This document shows, piece by piece, positions 518-17,850 of a DNA stretch of 35,366 nucleotides (position 1 is its first letter; every line of letters starts with the position of its first letter). Both the position numbers and the translations under genes were made by a program. The notes beneath the pieces were generated by a model that did no database searches, was not told the origin of the DNA, and saw nothing but the letters and a program-made list of their open reading frames with translations. This stretch comes from a virus: the IMG/VR virus record IMGVR_UViG_3300021406_000027, positions 1 to 35,366 of that record, one strand, 5' to 3'.

Positions 518-593
518 ACAGGTAGTCCGGTTCGACTCCGGCGGCGTGGCCGCGGCGACGCTGAAGTGTAATGGGAGCACGCCTGTCGCCAAA
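518..593 (+). tRNA. Probable circularly permuted tRNA, Trp-like (3' half before 5' half)
   Basis: The 3' half comes first: ACAGG (518-522), a T arm with loop TTCGACT (531-537) and acceptor strand 543-549. Six bases later comes a 5' half: acceptor-like CGACGCT (556-562), a D arm (GTGT/GCAC, 566-580), CCTGT (582-586) and CGCCAAA (587-593). CCTGT is perfectly complementary to the upstream ACAGG, and 556-562 pairs with 543-549 with one G-G mismatch. The D arm and loop resemble tRNA-Trp (CCA), but position 33 would be G. The last base abuts the first base of tRNA-fMet. Two decayed tRNA fragments are the alternative. Confidence 0.5.
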
Positions 594-2950: not shown

Positions 2951-3027
2951 CCGATGTCCAGTGCAAGTTCGAATCTTGCCCTCGGCTCCACATGCCGGGG
3001 TAGCCCAATTGGTAGAGGCAACATCGG
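2951..3027 (+). tRNA. Circularly permuted tRNA 1 (3' half upstream of 5' half)
   Basis: Order on the DNA: anticodon-stem 3' strand CCGATGT (2951-2957), variable loop CCAGT, T arm GCAAG-TTCGAAT-CTTGC (2963-2979), acceptor 3' strand CCTCGGC (2980-2986), TCCA (2987-2990), a 3-base spacer CAT, acceptor 5' strand GCCGGGG (2994-3000), TA, D arm GCC/GGC (3003-3019), A, then anticodon-stem 5' strand ACATCGG (3021-3027). Acceptor halves pair over 7 bp (one G-T) and anticodon strands over 7 bp. All four arms are complete; only the order is permuted, with the break in the anticodon loop. U73 with encoded CCA resembles Gly or Cys tRNAs. The anticodon cannot be read because the loop is split. Confidence 0.75.
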
Positions 3028-3063
3028 CCATCAACGTTAAATTATTGCTCTAGATTCAAACCC

Positions 3064-3101
3064 AGGTAGACGTGTCAAATCGACCGGGTGAAGGTAGACG
3101 T
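3064..3101 (+). repeat. 10-base direct repeat AGGTAGACGT
   Basis: AGGTAGACGT occurs at 3064-3073 and 3092-3101, in the spacer between the two permuted tRNAs. The second copy directly precedes the anticodon-stem strand of permuted tRNA 2 and contributes to the flanking helix with 3186-3194. It could mark a duplication boundary or a processing signal. Confidence 0.5.
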
Positions 3102-3176
3102 AGCAGAGATGGTGGTTCAATCCCGCCCGCCCCCTCCAAAATTCATGGGGGCGTGGCCCAATGGCAAGGCGCTGCG
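3102..3176 (+). tRNA. Circularly permuted tRNA 2 (3' half upstream of 5' half), Cys/Gly-like
   Basis: Order: anticodon-stem 3' strand GCAG (3103-3106), variable AGAT, T arm GGTGG-TTCAATC-CCGCC (3111-3127), acceptor 3' strand CGCCCCC (3128-3134), TCCA (3135-3138), spacer AAATTCAT, acceptor 5' strand GGGGGCG (3147-3153), TG, D arm GCC/GGC (3156-3170), G, then CTGC (3172-3175). Acceptor strands form a perfect 7-bp stem; CTGC/GCAG close the anticodon stem, followed by one G-A mismatch. Outside it, GAAGGTAG (3090-3097) pairs with 3186-3194 over 8 bp with one bulged A, so the flanks are held together. U73, CCA and the short D arm resemble tRNA-Cys or Gly; the anticodon is unresolved. Confidence 0.7.
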
Positions 3177-3256
3177 ACACTTAAACTAACCTTCGTCCTT
3201 AAATGTGTTGACACGGAAATGAATACCACCAAATGACCCGAAAAATCATTTGATTT

Positions 3257-3294: not shown

Positions 3295-3362
3295 GGCGCA
3301 CGTTCCGGTGACTAGCGAAGCTCTAACCTTCGCGACCGCGGGTTCGACTCCCGCATGCGCCG
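3295..3362 (+). tRNA. Amber suppressor tRNA (anticodon CTA), tRNA-Pyl-like shape
   Basis: Acceptor GGCGCA (3295-3300) pairs with TGCGCC (3356-3361), discriminator G3362. The anticodon stem is 6 bp (GCGAAG/CTTCGC) around CTCTAAC: U33 then CUA, which reads UAG. The D arm is minimal (GTT/GAC with a 5-base loop CCGGT) and one base separates acceptor from D stem. The T arm GCGGG-TTCGACT-CCCGC is canonical. A 6-bp anticodon stem, 5-base D loop, single linker base, CUA and G73 are known tRNA-Pyl traits; the normal T loop and 4-base variable region are less typical. No PylRS-like gene is in the window. A degenerate ordinary tRNA is the alternative. Confidence 0.7.
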
Positions 3363-3363
3363 C

Positions 3364-3651
3364 GTGAAAGCCAGGTTCCAAACCATCCCGCCGGAATGTC
3401 AGCACTGCGGCATCATCGACAGTCCAGACTTTGGTGCCCCGGTGGATTGCTACGAAGACAACGAACCCGACCCGCGCTGGTTCATGTGGTTATGCGCTAA
3501 TTGCCGAACCGACCAGTGGCATGCCAGCAACGGCACGGTCTCGTTGCGGGAGTTCCTTGGGCAAACCGAACTGGAACATAAATACTGGGTCGAAGGCAAG
3601 TGGGAGCCGTTCGCTGACGCTTACTACGAACGTGTCTGCGGAAACGACTGA
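3364..3651 (+). CDS. Small zinc-binding-type protein (two CxxC)
   Basis: About 95 residues with CQHC near the start and CANC further on, a four-cysteine zinc knuckle typical of small phage proteins. The C-terminus is acidic and aromatic (KYWVEGKWEPFADAYYERV). GTG3364 is preferred: an in-frame ATG3355 lies inside the tRNA acceptor. If RNase Z cuts after G3362, the mRNA would begin one base before GTG3364. No ribosome site is visible. DNA or RNA binding is possible but unproven. Confidence 0.6.
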   Translation: MKARFQTIPPECQHCGIIDSPDFGAPVDCYEDNEPDPRWFMWLCANCRTDQWHASNGTVSLREFLGQTELEHKYWVEGKWEPFADAYYERVCGND

Positions 3652-9356: not shown

Positions 9357-10353
9357 TAGCGAGTGCCCGGGTCTGCTGGAACACGCTGTTCATCCGCAGG
9401 ACGAACACGTTAACTGCGGTGTCGGTTGGGTTGGTGCCCAGTTTTTCGGCGGCGTGATCGGTTTCGCGGACCAACTCTTCTGCTTTGGCCCGGTCGGCGT
9501 CCGACAGGTTGGGGCGCTCCAAAATCTTCCCCAGAATCCCGTAGCTGCTGGCGAGGATCATGTTCGGGGTTGGTGTGTTCGCGGCGTAGGTGTCGTATCC
9601 GAGGCGTTTCGTGTTCCCGGCGATCAGTTCGAACGGGTACGAAATGTTGGTCAGCAGCCGTTGCAGATACTGCATGGAACCTTCCCACGTGACGTTGCGC
9701 CACCGCTCAGGGGCGTGCCACGGCCCTAGGAAACCGTTCGGCTGGTGGATCACCTCAGTTTTGATGAACGGGAATTTGACGTATTCCACCAGGATGTCCC
9801 AGTAGGCGACGGTCGGGTCGTCGTCCGTCCCGTCGGACCACGGCGCTGCCGGTGACTGCTGGATAGCGGCGTGGGCTTTCTCCGCGGACAGGTACGGTTC
9901 GACATGCAGCCCAACCACCAGGGCGTTCCCGATGATGTTTCCTTCGTCGTTGACGTTGAGGAACGACAGTGTGCGCTCGTTAAGTTCGACAGCCACGAAG
10001 AAGCTGGTGTTCTCGGCGGCGGTGTACACGTCGGCACCGGTGAACGAATCCCACATCTGCGTCAGCGGATACAGCGGCCCGTACACACTGTCGTCGGCGA
10101 ACACGACCCGGTCGTAGTCGTCCAGCCAGCCGTTTTGCACGGCGAGCCACCAACCGTGGTGCCACGCATCACCTTTGTGGCAGTACACGCCTTTGCAGAG
10201 CGGCCAAATGTTGGCTGCGGCTTCGGGATTCAGCTGGCCGCTTGACACAAAGACGATGTCCCCAAGCTCCCGTAGCTGTTCCAGGTAGTACTGGATTCGC
10301 CGGTCGACGGTGTCGAACACGTCGTTGTGGGCGAAAAAGATCAGTGTGCGCAT
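9346..10353 (-). CDS. Glycosyltransferase, rhamnan-synthesis (RgpF)-like
   Basis: 335 residues. The N-terminus (TLIFFAHNDVFDTVDRRIQY, then LGDIVFVSSG) and the central YDRVVFADDSVYGPLYPL match RgpF-like sugar transferases; the D-D-S is a likely nucleotide-sugar site. Later segments include NAFVVG-type strands and a C-terminal helical part. No signal or membrane segment, so cytoplasmic. It overlaps the upstream glycosyltransferase (ATGA), and both follow the minus tRNA block. Likely to add sugars to phage virion proteins or host envelope glycans; the acceptor is unknown. Confidence 0.75.
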   Translation of the reverse strand: MRTLIFFAHNDVFDTVDRRIQYYLEQLRELGDIVFVSSGQLNPEAAANIWPLCKGVYCHKGDAWHHGWWLAVQNGWLDDYDRVVFADDSVYGPLYPLTQMWDSFTGADVYTAAENTSFFVAVELNERTLSFLNVNDEGNIIGNALVVGLHVEPYLSAEKAHAAIQQSPAAPWSDGTDDDPTVAYWDILVEYVKFPFIKTEVIHQPNGFLGPWHAPERWRNVTWEGSMQYLQRLLTNISYPFELIAGNTKRLGYDTYAANTPTPNMILASSYGILGKILERPNLSDADRAKAEELVRETDHAAEKLGTNPTDTAVNVFVLRMNSVFQQTRALAISD

Positions 10354-11339
10354 CAAACCTCCCGCGGGAAAAGGGCCGCGATGTCGTCAATGAATCCTGC
10401 GGATTCGAGGGCGATCACCACCCGGTAGTAATTGAACCATTTCTGATGTTTGTCGAAGTCGCCTAGCAGGGCCATGACGAGGTCGGCTGCGGCGTCCTCG
10501 AAGCCGGGCTTCGTGTCATCTATCTTGAACATGTCGGGGATCGGCACATCAACCATGTTGCCGGCGCTTCCGCGGCGGTTAACAACAACACGCGCCCCGC
10601 ACACCGCGGCTTCTCGCGGCAACCTGTCCTTACCGGGGTGCGGACCGAAGTCGATGTACACCTTCGCCTGTTCAAGTAGCTCCTTCACCTGGTGCGGCCA
10701 CATCCGTGTCACCGCGGCCACTTCCGGCGCGTTATCGCGCTGGGCCAGCACATCAAGTATCAGCTGGGTCCGGGGCATCCCCTTCGCCGGGTTGTAGACA
10801 ACCAGATCCCGGCGCTCCCGGGGCACCTGAACAACACTAAGATTATCCAGATAGATGTTCGAAAGCCGATCAGATAGCCGATGCGCCGGCCCCAACCCCT
10901 CAGCCTCCAGGAACTCGCGCGCATATTCGCTCTGATATAAATGCTTGTCCACGCACCTACGCAGAACATTCAGATCATCCTCGAAATCCGACCCCCGAAG
11001 CTCCGCGGCCCGAAAGAAGCCATCAACGCTGAGCCACCAGAAAAAAGTTTCCGTCCCAGGAAACCTGTCAACCGCCTGAACCGCGGCCTCCGGGAAGATC
11101 ACCACCGAACCAGGTTCCACATCCTCCGCGGTCGCCGACCGGACATGGTATTTCTGGTAACACAGCGGCACCTCCCACCGCTGACCAGGCAACCGATCCG
11201 GCCACGTGAACGGCAAATACAGCATGAACGCCCGCTCACCCGCCCGGTTCAACACATCACCCAACTGGTGACAAAGCTCCGGGCCGCCGCTAACACAATT
11301 AGACGGCGCAACGATGAAGATCTTCCGCACAACGGCCAT
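10353..11339 (-). CDS. Glycosyltransferase (GT-B/GT4-like)
   Basis: 328 residues from ATG11339. The start KIFIVAPSNCVSGGPELCHQ matches GT-B enzymes with a glycine-rich acceptor loop; VVYNPAKGMPRTQLIL and YIDFGPHPGKDRLPREAAVC match the C-terminal donor half (the P-G-K-D-R-x-P-R-E-A signature). The start codon lies five bases after the encoded CCA of tRNA-Leu(TAA), so tRNA processing would give an almost leaderless mRNA. Probably works with the 9346 enzyme on one glycan. Confidence 0.8.
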   Translation of the reverse strand: MAVVRKIFIVAPSNCVSGGPELCHQLGDVLNRAGERAFMLYLPFTWPDRLPGQRWEVPLCYQKYHVRSATAEDVEPGSVVIFPEAAVQAVDRFPGTETFFWWLSVDGFFRAAELRGSDFEDDLNVLRRCVDKHLYQSEYAREFLEAEGLGPAHRLSDRLSNIYLDNLSVVQVPRERRDLVVYNPAKGMPRTQLILDVLAQRDNAPEVAAVTRMWPHQVKELLEQAKVYIDFGPHPGKDRLPREAAVCGARVVVNRRGSAGNMVDVPIPDMFKIDDTKPGFEDAAADLVMALLGDFDKHQKWFNYYRVVIALESAGFIDDIAALFPREV

Positions 11340-11347
11340 CCTAGTGG

Positions 11348-11428
11348 TACCCGTGGTGGGATTCGAACCCACATGGCTGTTGCCGACCGGACTTAAATCG
11401 GTTGCGTATGCCGTTCCGCCACACGGGC
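11348..11428 (-). tRNA. tRNA-Leu(TAA)
   Basis: Acceptor GCCCGTG (11428-11422) pairs with CACGGGT; discriminator A11348, encoded CCA at 11347-11345. The anticodon loop TTTAAGT gives TAA. A long variable arm (about CGGCAACAGCCATG) makes it a normal class II Leu tRNA. T loop TTCGAAT. Last tRNA of the minus cluster. Confidence 0.88.
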
Positions 11429-11442
11429 GTATCATGAACTTA

Positions 11443-11491
11443 GGGAACGGCCATTAAGATGGCGACACCCCAGGGCTGGACCGCCGTTCCC
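11443..11491 (-). other. 49-base stem element between tRNAs
   Basis: GGGAACGG (11443-11450) pairs with CCGTTCCC (11484-11491), and CCAT/ATGG forms a small inner hairpin. It occupies a tRNA-sized slot between tRNA-Leu(TAA) and tRNA-Leu(CAA) but has no T loop or readable anticodon arm. Similar in size and setting to the element at 301-350. Decayed tRNA or processing spacer. Confidence 0.35.
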
Positions 11492-11498
11492 GCTAACG

Positions 11499-11572
11499 TA
11501 CCCGGCGGGAGATTCGAACTCCCAACCACCACCTTTTGAGGATGGTCGCTCTGCCTGTTGGCGCACCCGGGC
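11499..11572 (-). tRNA. tRNA with CAA anticodon (Leu), short variable loop
   Basis: Acceptor 11572-11566 pairs with 11506-11500 (six pairs, G-G at 7:66). The anticodon stem CCATC/GGTGG encloses CTCAAAA, anticodon CAA. The variable loop is only 5 bases (TGGTT), unlike normal bacterial Leu tRNAs. Discriminator A, as LeuRS needs. T arm GGGAG-TTCGAAT-CTCCC. Confidence 0.8.
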
Positions 11573-11573
11573 G

Positions 11574-11647
11574 TACTCCGAGCGAGAGTCGAACTCGCAG
11601 ACACCAGCACCTCGAGCTGACGGCTTTGCCTGTTTGCCTATCGGAGC
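11574..11647 (-). tRNA. tRNA with GAG anticodon (Leu), short variable loop, C33
   Basis: Acceptor GCTCCGA pairs with TCGGAGT. The anticodon stem TCAGC/GCTGG encloses TCGAGGT; this gives anticodon GAG but a C at position 33, where U is nearly universal. Short variable loop, discriminator A, T arm GCGAG-TTCGACT-CTCGC. Confidence 0.75.
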
Positions 11648-11648
11648 G

Positions 11649-11724
11649 TACCTCGCCCGAGAGTCGAACTCGGAAACATCAGAATCTGAATCTGACGGCT
11701 TTGCCATGGTTTGCCTAGCGAGGC
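11649..11724 (-). tRNA. tRNA with CAG anticodon (Leu), short variable loop
   Basis: Acceptor GCCTCGC pairs with GCGAGGT. The anticodon stem TCAGA/TCTGA encloses TTCAGAT, anticodon CAG. Variable loop TGTTT (5 bases). The D arm (GGC/GCC) closely resembles that of the GAG tRNA next to it, so the two probably share an origin. Discriminator A. Confidence 0.82.
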
Positions 11725-11730
11725 TTGTTG

Positions 11731-11814
11731 CGGAAGGTAGAGGTGTCGATCCCCCGGGATGATTACCGCTTGGATGCTTTCAAGGCAACCTGGCTGGCCG
11801 CAGCCGTACCTTCC
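11731..11814 (-). tRNA. tRNA-Ser(TGA)
   Basis: Acceptor GGAAGGT (11814-11808) pairs perfectly with ACCTTCC (11738-11732); discriminator G11731. The anticodon loop CTTGAAA gives TGA, with one T-T mismatch in the stem. Long class II variable arm. The T loop begins ATCGA, with A in place of the universal T54. Confidence 0.78.
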
Positions 11815-11818
11815 ATCG

Positions 11819-11905
11819 CGGAAGGTGGAGGTCTTGATCCCCATCACACTTTCGTGGACGCTGGCATTAGCAGTACCGCCCGAACACCCGATCGGTTCAC
11901 CTTCC
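11819..11905 (-). tRNA. tRNA-Ser(GCT)
   Basis: The acceptor strands GGAAGGT/ACCTTCC are identical to those of tRNA-Ser(TGA). The anticodon loop CTGCTAA gives GCT, closed by GGTA/TGCC. Long variable arm, discriminator G11819. The T loop begins ATCAA, again A at position 54. First gene of the minus tRNA block. Confidence 0.75.
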
Positions 11906-12713: not shown

Positions 12714-13566
12714 ACCGTTCCGGGTGGTGACGCACCGCAACTGGCTGGCTGAGCACTTCAAAGAATACGGTGCGGTGCAGGACTTCGGATTCGATATCGA
12801 TCCTGATACCGCGGAGTCTGCGTATTGGTGGGCACCTGGGGCGTGGGTGGCGTGCGCGTGGCAGTCGGGTGTGCGGCTGCCGTTGCTACTGTGTGGGCAT
12901 CGGTGGATGGAAGACCTTCCGTACGAATATAAGGAACGGGATATCGCTGTCCGTAAGATCGAGGACATTGAGGACGCCCCGGATGCCGGTGAGGAACTTG
13001 TGCACGTGAAGTTGCCGGAAGCCAAGCTGGACAGCTTTCCGGCCAGCGTGTTCCACGCCAGCCATTTGGGTACGTCGTTGAAGCAGTTCTGGGTGCCCAA
13101 GGGTACGTTGTTGCAGCTGTCTGAGGTTGTGCATTTCGTTCGGGAGTGCCGGTTCTGGATGTGTCACGGCGTGGTGACCGCGCATTCCTGGTATTTAGTG
13201 GACGGCATGTTGTGGGATCACCCCGACTTTAAGGGCGACGCCCACTACGACAGCAAAGACCACACCTATCTGGATATGGCTGACCTGGCCGAGGATGTGG
13301 CCGCGAATGTGGCTTGCCCGCCGGGGTTCACCATCGACATGGGACTCACCGACGACGGCAGGATCCTTGTGGTGGAAACCAACGCGTCCTGGTCGAGTTC
13401 ACCTTACAACGGCGACCCGGAAGGAATCATCGACAGCATCGCGGCCAGCCACGACTTCGACAACGAATATCCGCAGTGGCGGTGGCGACCCAACCCGGTG
13501 TACGGGATCGTTCAGCCGCTGAAGTGGGCGGAAGTTATCAACGGAGGCCGGCGCGAATCCAGTTAA
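12700..13566 (+). CDS. ATP-grasp domain protein (R2K-clade type)
   Basis: 288 residues. The last 150 carry an ATP-grasp pattern: HVKLPEAKLDSFPAS (nucleotide-contacting strand), EVVHFVRECRFWM, SWYLVDG and FTIDMGLTDDGRILVVETN, the metal-binding D...E-x-N end seen in the family, followed by ASWSSSPYNGDPEGII. R2K-clade ATP-grasps occur in phages and are predicted to ligate amino acids or peptides to proteins or other amines. ATG12700 overlaps the previous gene by 14 bases. Cytoplasmic; substrate unknown. Confidence 0.72.
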   Translation: MKLDRPFRVVTHRNWLAEHFKEYGAVQDFGFDIDPDTAESAYWWAPGAWVACAWQSGVRLPLLLCGHRWMEDLPYEYKERDIAVRKIEDIEDAPDAGEELVHVKLPEAKLDSFPASVFHASHLGTSLKQFWVPKGTLLQLSEVVHFVRECRFWMCHGVVTAHSWYLVDGMLWDHPDFKGDAHYDSKDHTYLDMADLAEDVAANVACPPGFTIDMGLTDDGRILVVETNASWSSSPYNGDPEGIIDSIAASHDFDNEYPQWRWRPNPVYGIVQPLKWAEVINGGRRESS

Positions 13567-16885: not shown

Positions 16886-17069
16886 GACCTGATTGTCGCA
16901 GCACAATCCAACTTTTCAGGACCGTTGGGTTGCGTGTCGTGTACAGCAGCTCCCCCGCGCGGTAGAAGCCGGCGTCCCGAATCTTTCCGGTGATCTGGTT
17001 GTAGTTGACGATTATCTTGTCGTCACCGCGGACCAGCACCTTGTGGCGACGCCAAAAGAACAGGTTCAT
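16878..17069 (-). CDS. Small basic protein, 63 aa
   Basis: ATG17069 with AAAGGCGGC upstream. NLFFWRRHKVLVRGDDKIIV, then NYNQITGKIRDAGFYRAGEL; beta-rich and basic. No family recognised. Confidence 0.5.
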   Translation of the reverse strand: MNLFFWRRHKVLVRGDDKIIVNYNQITGKIRDAGFYRAGELLYTTRNPTVLKSWIVLRQSGRG

Positions 17070-17081
17070 GGTCGCCGCCTT

Positions 17082-17342
17082 TCATGCTGCCGGTTCTCCG
17101 GGTGTCCCACGATGCCACACAACCTTGCCTATCGGTACGTGGGTGTAAATGAATGTGGACCCGAGTTGACACAGGTATTCGTAACTCCGCCCGACTTTAC
17201 AAGGCCTGCTGCGCGGGGTGTGGTCCGGGGTCTCCGACTCGGCGGACCTCGGGGGTTCGGTGGGCATTGGATGTTCAGAAAACATAGCTGTCACCGGCTT
17301 CGTCAGAGCACTTTGATCCAAGGTAGGAGTGGCAGGCGTCAC
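17082..17342 (-). CDS. Hypothetical protein, 86 aa
   Basis: GTG17342 opens a Pro/Thr/Ser-rich N-terminus and a short folded end (GRSYEYLCQLGSTFIYTHV, then PIGKVVWHRG). The start lies next to the palindrome at 17346-17374. Moderate support. Confidence 0.45.
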   Translation of the reverse strand: MTPATPTLDQSALTKPVTAMFSEHPMPTEPPRSAESETPDHTPRSRPCKVGRSYEYLCQLGSTFIYTHVPIGKVVWHRGTPGEPAA

Positions 17343-17508: not shown

Positions 17509-17850
17509 TTACTTAACTTTCGGTTTACGCTGCGCAGCCCGGAACTGGCGGCGCACATCATTGGAGATACGGCCACGCGTAGACACCGTGACGTTGTTGG
17601 CTTTGGCCCAGTTGCGGATCGCTGTGTTGCTGGTCGCCGACAACTTGACGCCCCGGCTAGACGATGACGCGCGCAGACGCTTCTTCCCCGACGCGTGCGC
17701 CGTGTACCGCTCGAACGCACGATCGAACTCGGCGGCGCTCTCCTCGCTCAGGTCGATGCTGTACTGCACGTTGTTGATGGTGAACTTCCGGGTCGCCTTC
17801 GCGGGCTGGCCGGTGATATCGTCAACTATCTCGACGGTTCGTTTCTTCAT
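17509..17850 (-). CDS. lsr2: Lsr2-like nucleoid-associated protein
   Basis: 113 residues, the usual Lsr2 length. N-terminal oligomerisation domain: TVEIVDDITGQPAKATRKFT, then NNVQYSIDLSEESAAEFDRA and FERYTAHA. A basic Ser-rich linker is followed by the C-terminal DNA-binding domain AIRNWAKANNVTVSTRGRIS with the R-G-R minor-groove motif and ending DVRRQFRAA. Lsr2 is the actinobacterial H-NS-like silencer of AT-rich DNA. A phage copy may silence phage genes, interfere with host Lsr2, or act as anti-silencer. The gene is framed by repeat copies A/B (after it) and C (before it). Confidence 0.93.
   Translation of the reverse strand: MKKRTVEIVDDITGQPAKATRKFTINNVQYSIDLSEESAAEFDRAFERYTAHASGKKRLRASSSSRGVKLSATSNTAIRNWAKANNVTVSTRGRISNDVRRQFRAAQRKPKVK

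Follow-up and report, generated by a model that had tools for sequence, protein, structure and literature searches.

A likely circularly permuted tRNA-Trp-derived sequence between two tRNA-Met genes of a phage tRNA array

Introduction

In all, 34 permuted tRNA genes have been described from algae and one archaeon, none of them from a bacterium or a phage (Soma 2014, PMC3978253). The intervening sequence of these genes measures 1-74 bp and their junctions lie mostly at 37/38 (type II), while the permuted tRNAs of C. merolae keep U8, G18G19 and U33 and have ends that form a bulge-helix-bulge (PMC3978253). Our own search of titles and abstracts, with subscription journals mostly outside its reach, returned no bacterial or phage permuted tRNA gene.

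Here we analyse a 35,366-base virus fragment from IMG/VR (the window), whose tRNA array is akin to those of the Gordonia phages GodonK, Phendrix and Sixama. A sequence-only reading of this DNA had proposed a permuted tRNA lying directly before tRNA-fMet, and had taken it as a hint of a common scheme in which the processing of neighbouring tRNAs defines permuted ends.

Results

Anatomy of the insert

Between an elongator-type and an initiator tRNA-Met gene the window carries 79 additional nucleotides, which a letter-by-letter parse resolves into two tRNA halves in swapped order:

441-514, + strand: elongator-type tRNA-Met(CAT), upstream neighbour (ARAGORN; Rfam tRNA, 43.5 bits)
515-593, + strand: 79-nt insert between both tRNA-Met genes, missing from five related phages
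515-517, + strand: TAG, start of the insert
518-549, + strand: 3' half of a tRNA (tRNA positions 39-73; parse and ARAGORN drawing of the rejoined sequence)
518-522, + strand: anticodon 3' strand ACAGG
523-526, + strand: variable loop TAGT
527-541, + strand: T arm CCGG-TTCGACT-CCGG, 4 bp only
542-548, + strand: acceptor 3' strand CGGCGTG
549, + strand: G73
550-556, + strand: intervening sequence CCGCGGC, 7 nt
557-593, + strand: 5' half of a tRNA, Trp-like (tRNA positions 1-38; best phage tRNA alignments are to tRNA-Trp)
557-563, + strand: acceptor 5' strand GACGCTG, then AA
566-580, + strand: D arm GTGT-AATGGGA-GCAC, then G
582-586, + strand: anticodon 5' strand CCTGT
587-593, + strand: anticodon loop CGCCAAA, with anticodon CCA at 589-591 and G at position 33
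594-668, + strand: initiator tRNA-fMet, downstream neighbour (ARAGORN; Rfam, 44.1 bits)

The sequence-only reading was right in its coordinates and in most of its anatomy: the 3' half does precede the 5' half, ACAGG at 518-522 is complementary to CCTGT at 582-586, the last base of the insert is 593 with fMet starting at 594, and the one G-G mismatch of the acceptor is the G1-G72 clash. Six of the seven acceptor positions pair (one of them as G-U), the anticodon stem is fully paired (5/5) and is prolonged by G517-C587, and the halves are split at 38/39, exactly after the anticodon loop. The T stem is one pair short, a detail that the sequence-only reading did not give. At the place of N73-CCA, G549 and the start of the spacer read GCCG. 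The upstream tRNA-Met has A73 at 513 and no CCA after it; in general, the linear tRNAs at 1-668 have no encoded CCA, and the permuted domains at 2952-3177, described below, encode TCCA. Elsewhere in the array, between tRNA-Asn and tRNA-Gln, lies another tRNA-like sequence (299-355) with a 7/7 acceptor, an anticodon arm with the loop GTCATTC, and no T arm.

As the earlier reading of the D arm had suggested, the 5' half finds its best alignments in our set of phage tRNAs with tRNA-Trp, from Sixama, NiceHouse and Racecar. The loop CGCCAAA is one base apart from the CTCCAAA of these best-matching Trp genes, and G73 is the same. The 3' half aligns best to tRNA-Cys and poorly to Trp, and is too diverged to assign. 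With 593 rejoined to 518, ARAGORN reports no tRNA at its default threshold; relaxed to 95%, it folds the sequence as a tRNA-Trp(CCA) cloverleaf.

Other ways of reading the same letters failed: neither ARAGORN nor Rfam, even at E<=5, finds a linear tRNA at 515-593; an overlapping linear tRNA made of the 5' half and the start of fMet has no anticodon 3' strand at that place; and a standard 5-bp T stem combined with the acceptor GGCGTGG/CGACGCT disrupts the D arm and yields a score of just 6.2.

Insertion site and relatives

The gap between the Met and fMet genes is 0-1 nt in GodonK, Phendrix, Sixama, Annadreamy and BillNye (5/5), and since the two genes abut in these five relatives, the insert is most simply a clean insertion in its own lineage. 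Neither 50,697 phage records nor IMG/VR, scanned for exact matches to patterns of the D half, the T half and fMet, yielded a homologue of it; among the close relatives reached through these patterns and through the flanking protein P0001 none had the insert, and no phage tRNA matched the relinearised insert over its whole length. The comparison with sister phages that the earlier reading had proposed thus turned up neither a linear nor a permuted tRNA at this place: Met and fMet simply abut. Because the insert has no homologues, decay cannot be demonstrated.

Pairing between the halves and the possibility of chance

The first alternative to be weighed is that no permutation ever took place, and that the decayed 3' half of one gene happens to precede the 5' half of another. 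We consider this unlikely, although tRNA arrays gain and lose genes and the 3' half, closest to tRNA-Cys, is a poor match to Trp. Our scorer for permuted tRNAs, with 94 phage tRNAs as its training set and a 4-bp T stem allowed, gave the insert 44.8, as against at most 11.9 in 100 shuffles of the 35-kb window. This high score shows tRNA descent and not permutation, because plain two-tRNA junctions also total well; for the same reason a null of random half-tRNA junctions judged by total score was uninformative. Likewise, the insert scores 22.5 bits in R1, a covariance model built from conserved permuted domains, but many ordinary tRNA-tRNA junctions equal it, and we rejected the total covariance-model score as proof of permutation.

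It is the pairing between the halves, rather than the total score, that argues for permutation. When unrelated T halves and D halves were combined, an acceptor of at least 6/7 together with an anticodon stem of 5/5 occurred in only 7 of 8,192 combinations (0.085%), and with Watson-Crick pairs only, a single one was as well paired (0.012%); none of 81 adjacent tRNA-tRNA junctions reached acceptor >=6/7 and anticodon stem 5/5. In the insert, moreover, neither break takes anything from the anticodon stem, which is exactly complete; this speaks against two unrelated remnants. A scan of both strands of 537 kb of tRNA-rich phage DNA gave no qualifying matches other than 14 DUF7873-linked members and the insert. 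Taking together all the explanations that involve it, permutation is likely, although not proven.

DUF7873-linked domains and the structural mimic

The window holds two further, better-supported elements with the same arm order:

2128-2892: DUF7873 gene (E=1.4e-100), followed by two permuted domains
2952-3026 and 3101-3177: permuted tRNA-like domains with 7/7 acceptors and encoded TCCA

These twin domains score 88.1 and 57.5 bits in R1, of which they are themselves members. Among 11 sequences, both partners vary in 16 of the 20 pairs, and these paired changes stand out against slid controls; the T and acceptor stems are 100% paired, a percentage inflated because the members were picked by a scan that requires pairing. 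Relatives of DUF7873, of which the literature that we searched makes no mention, are encoded in 73 phage records, and permuted domains lie just downstream of the gene in the Gordonia, Arthrobacter, Rhodococcus, Pseudanabaena, Rhizobium, Vibrio and Klebsiella phages examined; a Microcoleus phage with DUF7873 gave weak, distant matches only. As the anticodon stem runs on and no loop is evident, the twin domains look like parts of a longer RNA and not like tRNA genes; they resemble Y RNAs (YrlA): an element of Sixama scores 46.8 bits against YrlA, where the cut-off is 69 bits.

Several other elements are of note. The YrlA-like RNA of Sixama (13106-13204) is partly called tRNA-Leu by ARAGORN and lies about 1.3 kb downstream of a gene for the Ro (TROVE) protein (10191-11822). 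GodonK (17730-17800) and Phendrix (17048-17118) carry a permuted T arm-acceptor-D arm element directly after tRNA-Val, with a 7/7 acceptor and ACCA (ATCA in Phendrix). In Streptomyces phage tRNA arrays there is an unannotated permuted tRNA-like domain (1774-1844 in one of them) with conserved flanks, matched by 59 records, and in Klebsiella phage FBKp24 a tRNA-Sup(TTA) annotation (3512-3591) overlaps the permuted domain at the same RNA locus. The window itself has, at 3295-3363, a small tRNA with a CUA anticodon and a short D arm, called tRNA-Pyl, which is a possible amber suppressor.

The insert shares its arm order and its phage with the DUF7873-linked domains. It is not orthologous to them. 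Their acceptors pair 7/7, most of the copies encode NCCA, covariation is strong and R1 scores them at 57-88 bits; the insert, with GCCG, reaches 22.5 bits and does not lie beside a DUF7873 gene. Nor is the common scheme of the sequence-only reading supported: the other two strong elements (2952-3026 and 3101-3177) are part of a longer conserved RNA beside DUF7873, with no such flanking tRNAs.

These domains bear on a second alternative, somewhat less probable than the first, in which the insert would be a small permuted tRNA-like RNA without a decoding role, similar to the tRNA-like part of YrlA and retained because it binds, or acts as a decoy for, an enzyme that handles tRNAs, an anticodon nuclease for example. 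Permuted domains of the order T arm-acceptor-D arm are clear elsewhere in the window and in related phages, and such a mimic would need neither U33 nor a CCA end. However, the insert is not conserved, a Ro-binding stem would not fit between the flanking tRNAs, and we found no gene for the Ro (TROVE) protein, which Sixama has, in the 35-kb fragment, GodonK or Phendrix. No match to YrlA (RF02553) was found in 280-690 up to E=5, nor at the insert in a search of the whole fragment. With no such match, an outer stem of 6 bp and a position flush between two tRNAs, the insert was rejected as a Y RNA.

Could the insert work as a tRNA?

The third alternative is that of a working permuted tRNA-Trp gene, in which RNase P acting on the next tRNA would generate the 3' end, flanking processing would free the RNA, a ligase would seal 593 to 518, and the joined RNA, opened around 549-556 by RNase P and 3' processing, would become mature tRNA-Trp. 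The exact half-tRNA ends, the 7-nt loop CGCCAAA with CCA correctly placed, the perfect anticodon stem and G73 all fit such a gene. The proposal that neighbour processing sets the ends survives in part: RNase P cleavage at 593/594 would make the exact 3' end, but the 5' end is inexact, because the tRNA-Met discriminator at 513 leaves C514, T515, A516 and G517 as an overhang of about four nucleotides.

The rejoined sequence itself fails the test of an orthodox tRNA, with A8, G33, a 4-bp T stem and G1-G72, the GG of the D loop alone being kept. Compared with 174 phage tRNAs, G33 is found in none (171 have U33), A8 in 11, an unpaired 1:72 in 9 (7 of these tRNA-Met) and a T stem of at most four pairs in 12; in addition, CCA is missing, the insert having GCCG where most of the conserved permuted domains encode NCCA. 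The predicted minimum-energy fold is a long hairpin, at -33.7 kcal/mol versus -20.9 for the cloverleaf, and when phage tRNAs were permuted in silico and given the same spacer, only 5% showed a gap this large (12.8 kcal/mol). Considered in its own right as a plain stable hairpin, the insert was rejected, the z-score being merely -1.3 to -1.65. There is no bulge-helix-bulge at its ends: beyond GACAGG/CCTGTC the flanks TA and GCCAAA are unpaired, and intact tRNAs lie outside them. Finally, we looked for RtcB and for ligases of the T4 Rnl1 type, and found neither in the window fragment, GodonK, Phendrix or Sixama; Annadreamy, Racecar and NiceHouse do encode Rnl1-type ligases. Taken with the tRNA faults, the fold gap and the inexact 5' end, this makes a working permuted tRNA unlikely, and the least probable of the explanations weighed here.

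Discussion

Of the sequence-only reading, the observation is confirmed and the interpretation supported in part. We give about an even chance to the view that the insert is a circularly permuted sequence of tRNA-Trp(CCA) descent from which a decoding tRNA is no longer made; behind it come, in this order, chance juxtaposition, the structural mimic and the working gene. Given its several faults and its lack of relatives, the insert probably does not work as a tRNA but is a copy that has worn out or is purely structural. The perfect anticodon stem and the complete, exactly bounded loop speak against decay, which would soon erase such features. In the course of events that we favour, a permuted tRNA-Trp(CCA) sequence would have landed between two abutting tRNA-Met genes. 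Within a polycistronic tRNA transcript, the insert would be freed by RNase P at 593/594 and, near 513, by the 3' processing of tRNA-Met, as a short RNA about 76-80 nt long that the 5-6 bp stem GACAGG/CCTGTC closes. The released RNA would stay permuted, and would be degraded or persist merely as a structural tRNA mimic. The sequence itself shows the anatomy, the fit between the halves, the exact place of insertion and the faults; we infer that the insert is transcribed and cut in this manner and that it is a permuted tRNA-Trp copy whose decoding function was lost or never acquired.

If the insert were functional, permuted tRNA genes, reported from algae and one archaeon, would extend to phages, with a maturation route that dispenses with the tRNA-splicing endonuclease; we know of no permuted tRNA gene from a bacterium or a phage, so that a working one here would be the first. 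Even as a relic, it shows that tRNA sequences with swapped halves do arise in the tRNA arrays of phages. The insert also points to the better-supported finding in this window, the covarying RNA with two permuted tRNA-like domains beside DUF7873, which is found in phages of very different hosts and whose role is directly testable.

How, then, does the insert compare with known systems? (i) As in the permuted genes of algae and Thermofilum pendens, the 3' half comes first, the acceptor strands pair across a short spacer (1-74 bp in the known genes, 7 in the insert) and the junction lies in or at the anticodon loop (37/38 in the known type II genes, 38/39 in the insert). Unlike the permuted tRNAs of C. 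merolae, the insert has no U8, U33 or bulge-helix-bulge, and any splicing route for it would be conjectural. (ii) With the YrlA Y RNAs (Rfam RF02553) it shares the permuted order of T arm, acceptor-like helix and D arm and the outer stem that closes them; it differs from them in having neither a YrlA match nor a Ro-binding outer stem, in a fragment where we found no Ro protein. (iii) As with the tRNA pseudogenes of phage arrays, a faulty tRNA sequence lies between intact tRNAs; ordinary tRNA remnants, however, are linear, whereas the insert has its halves exchanged and yet keeps matching stems.
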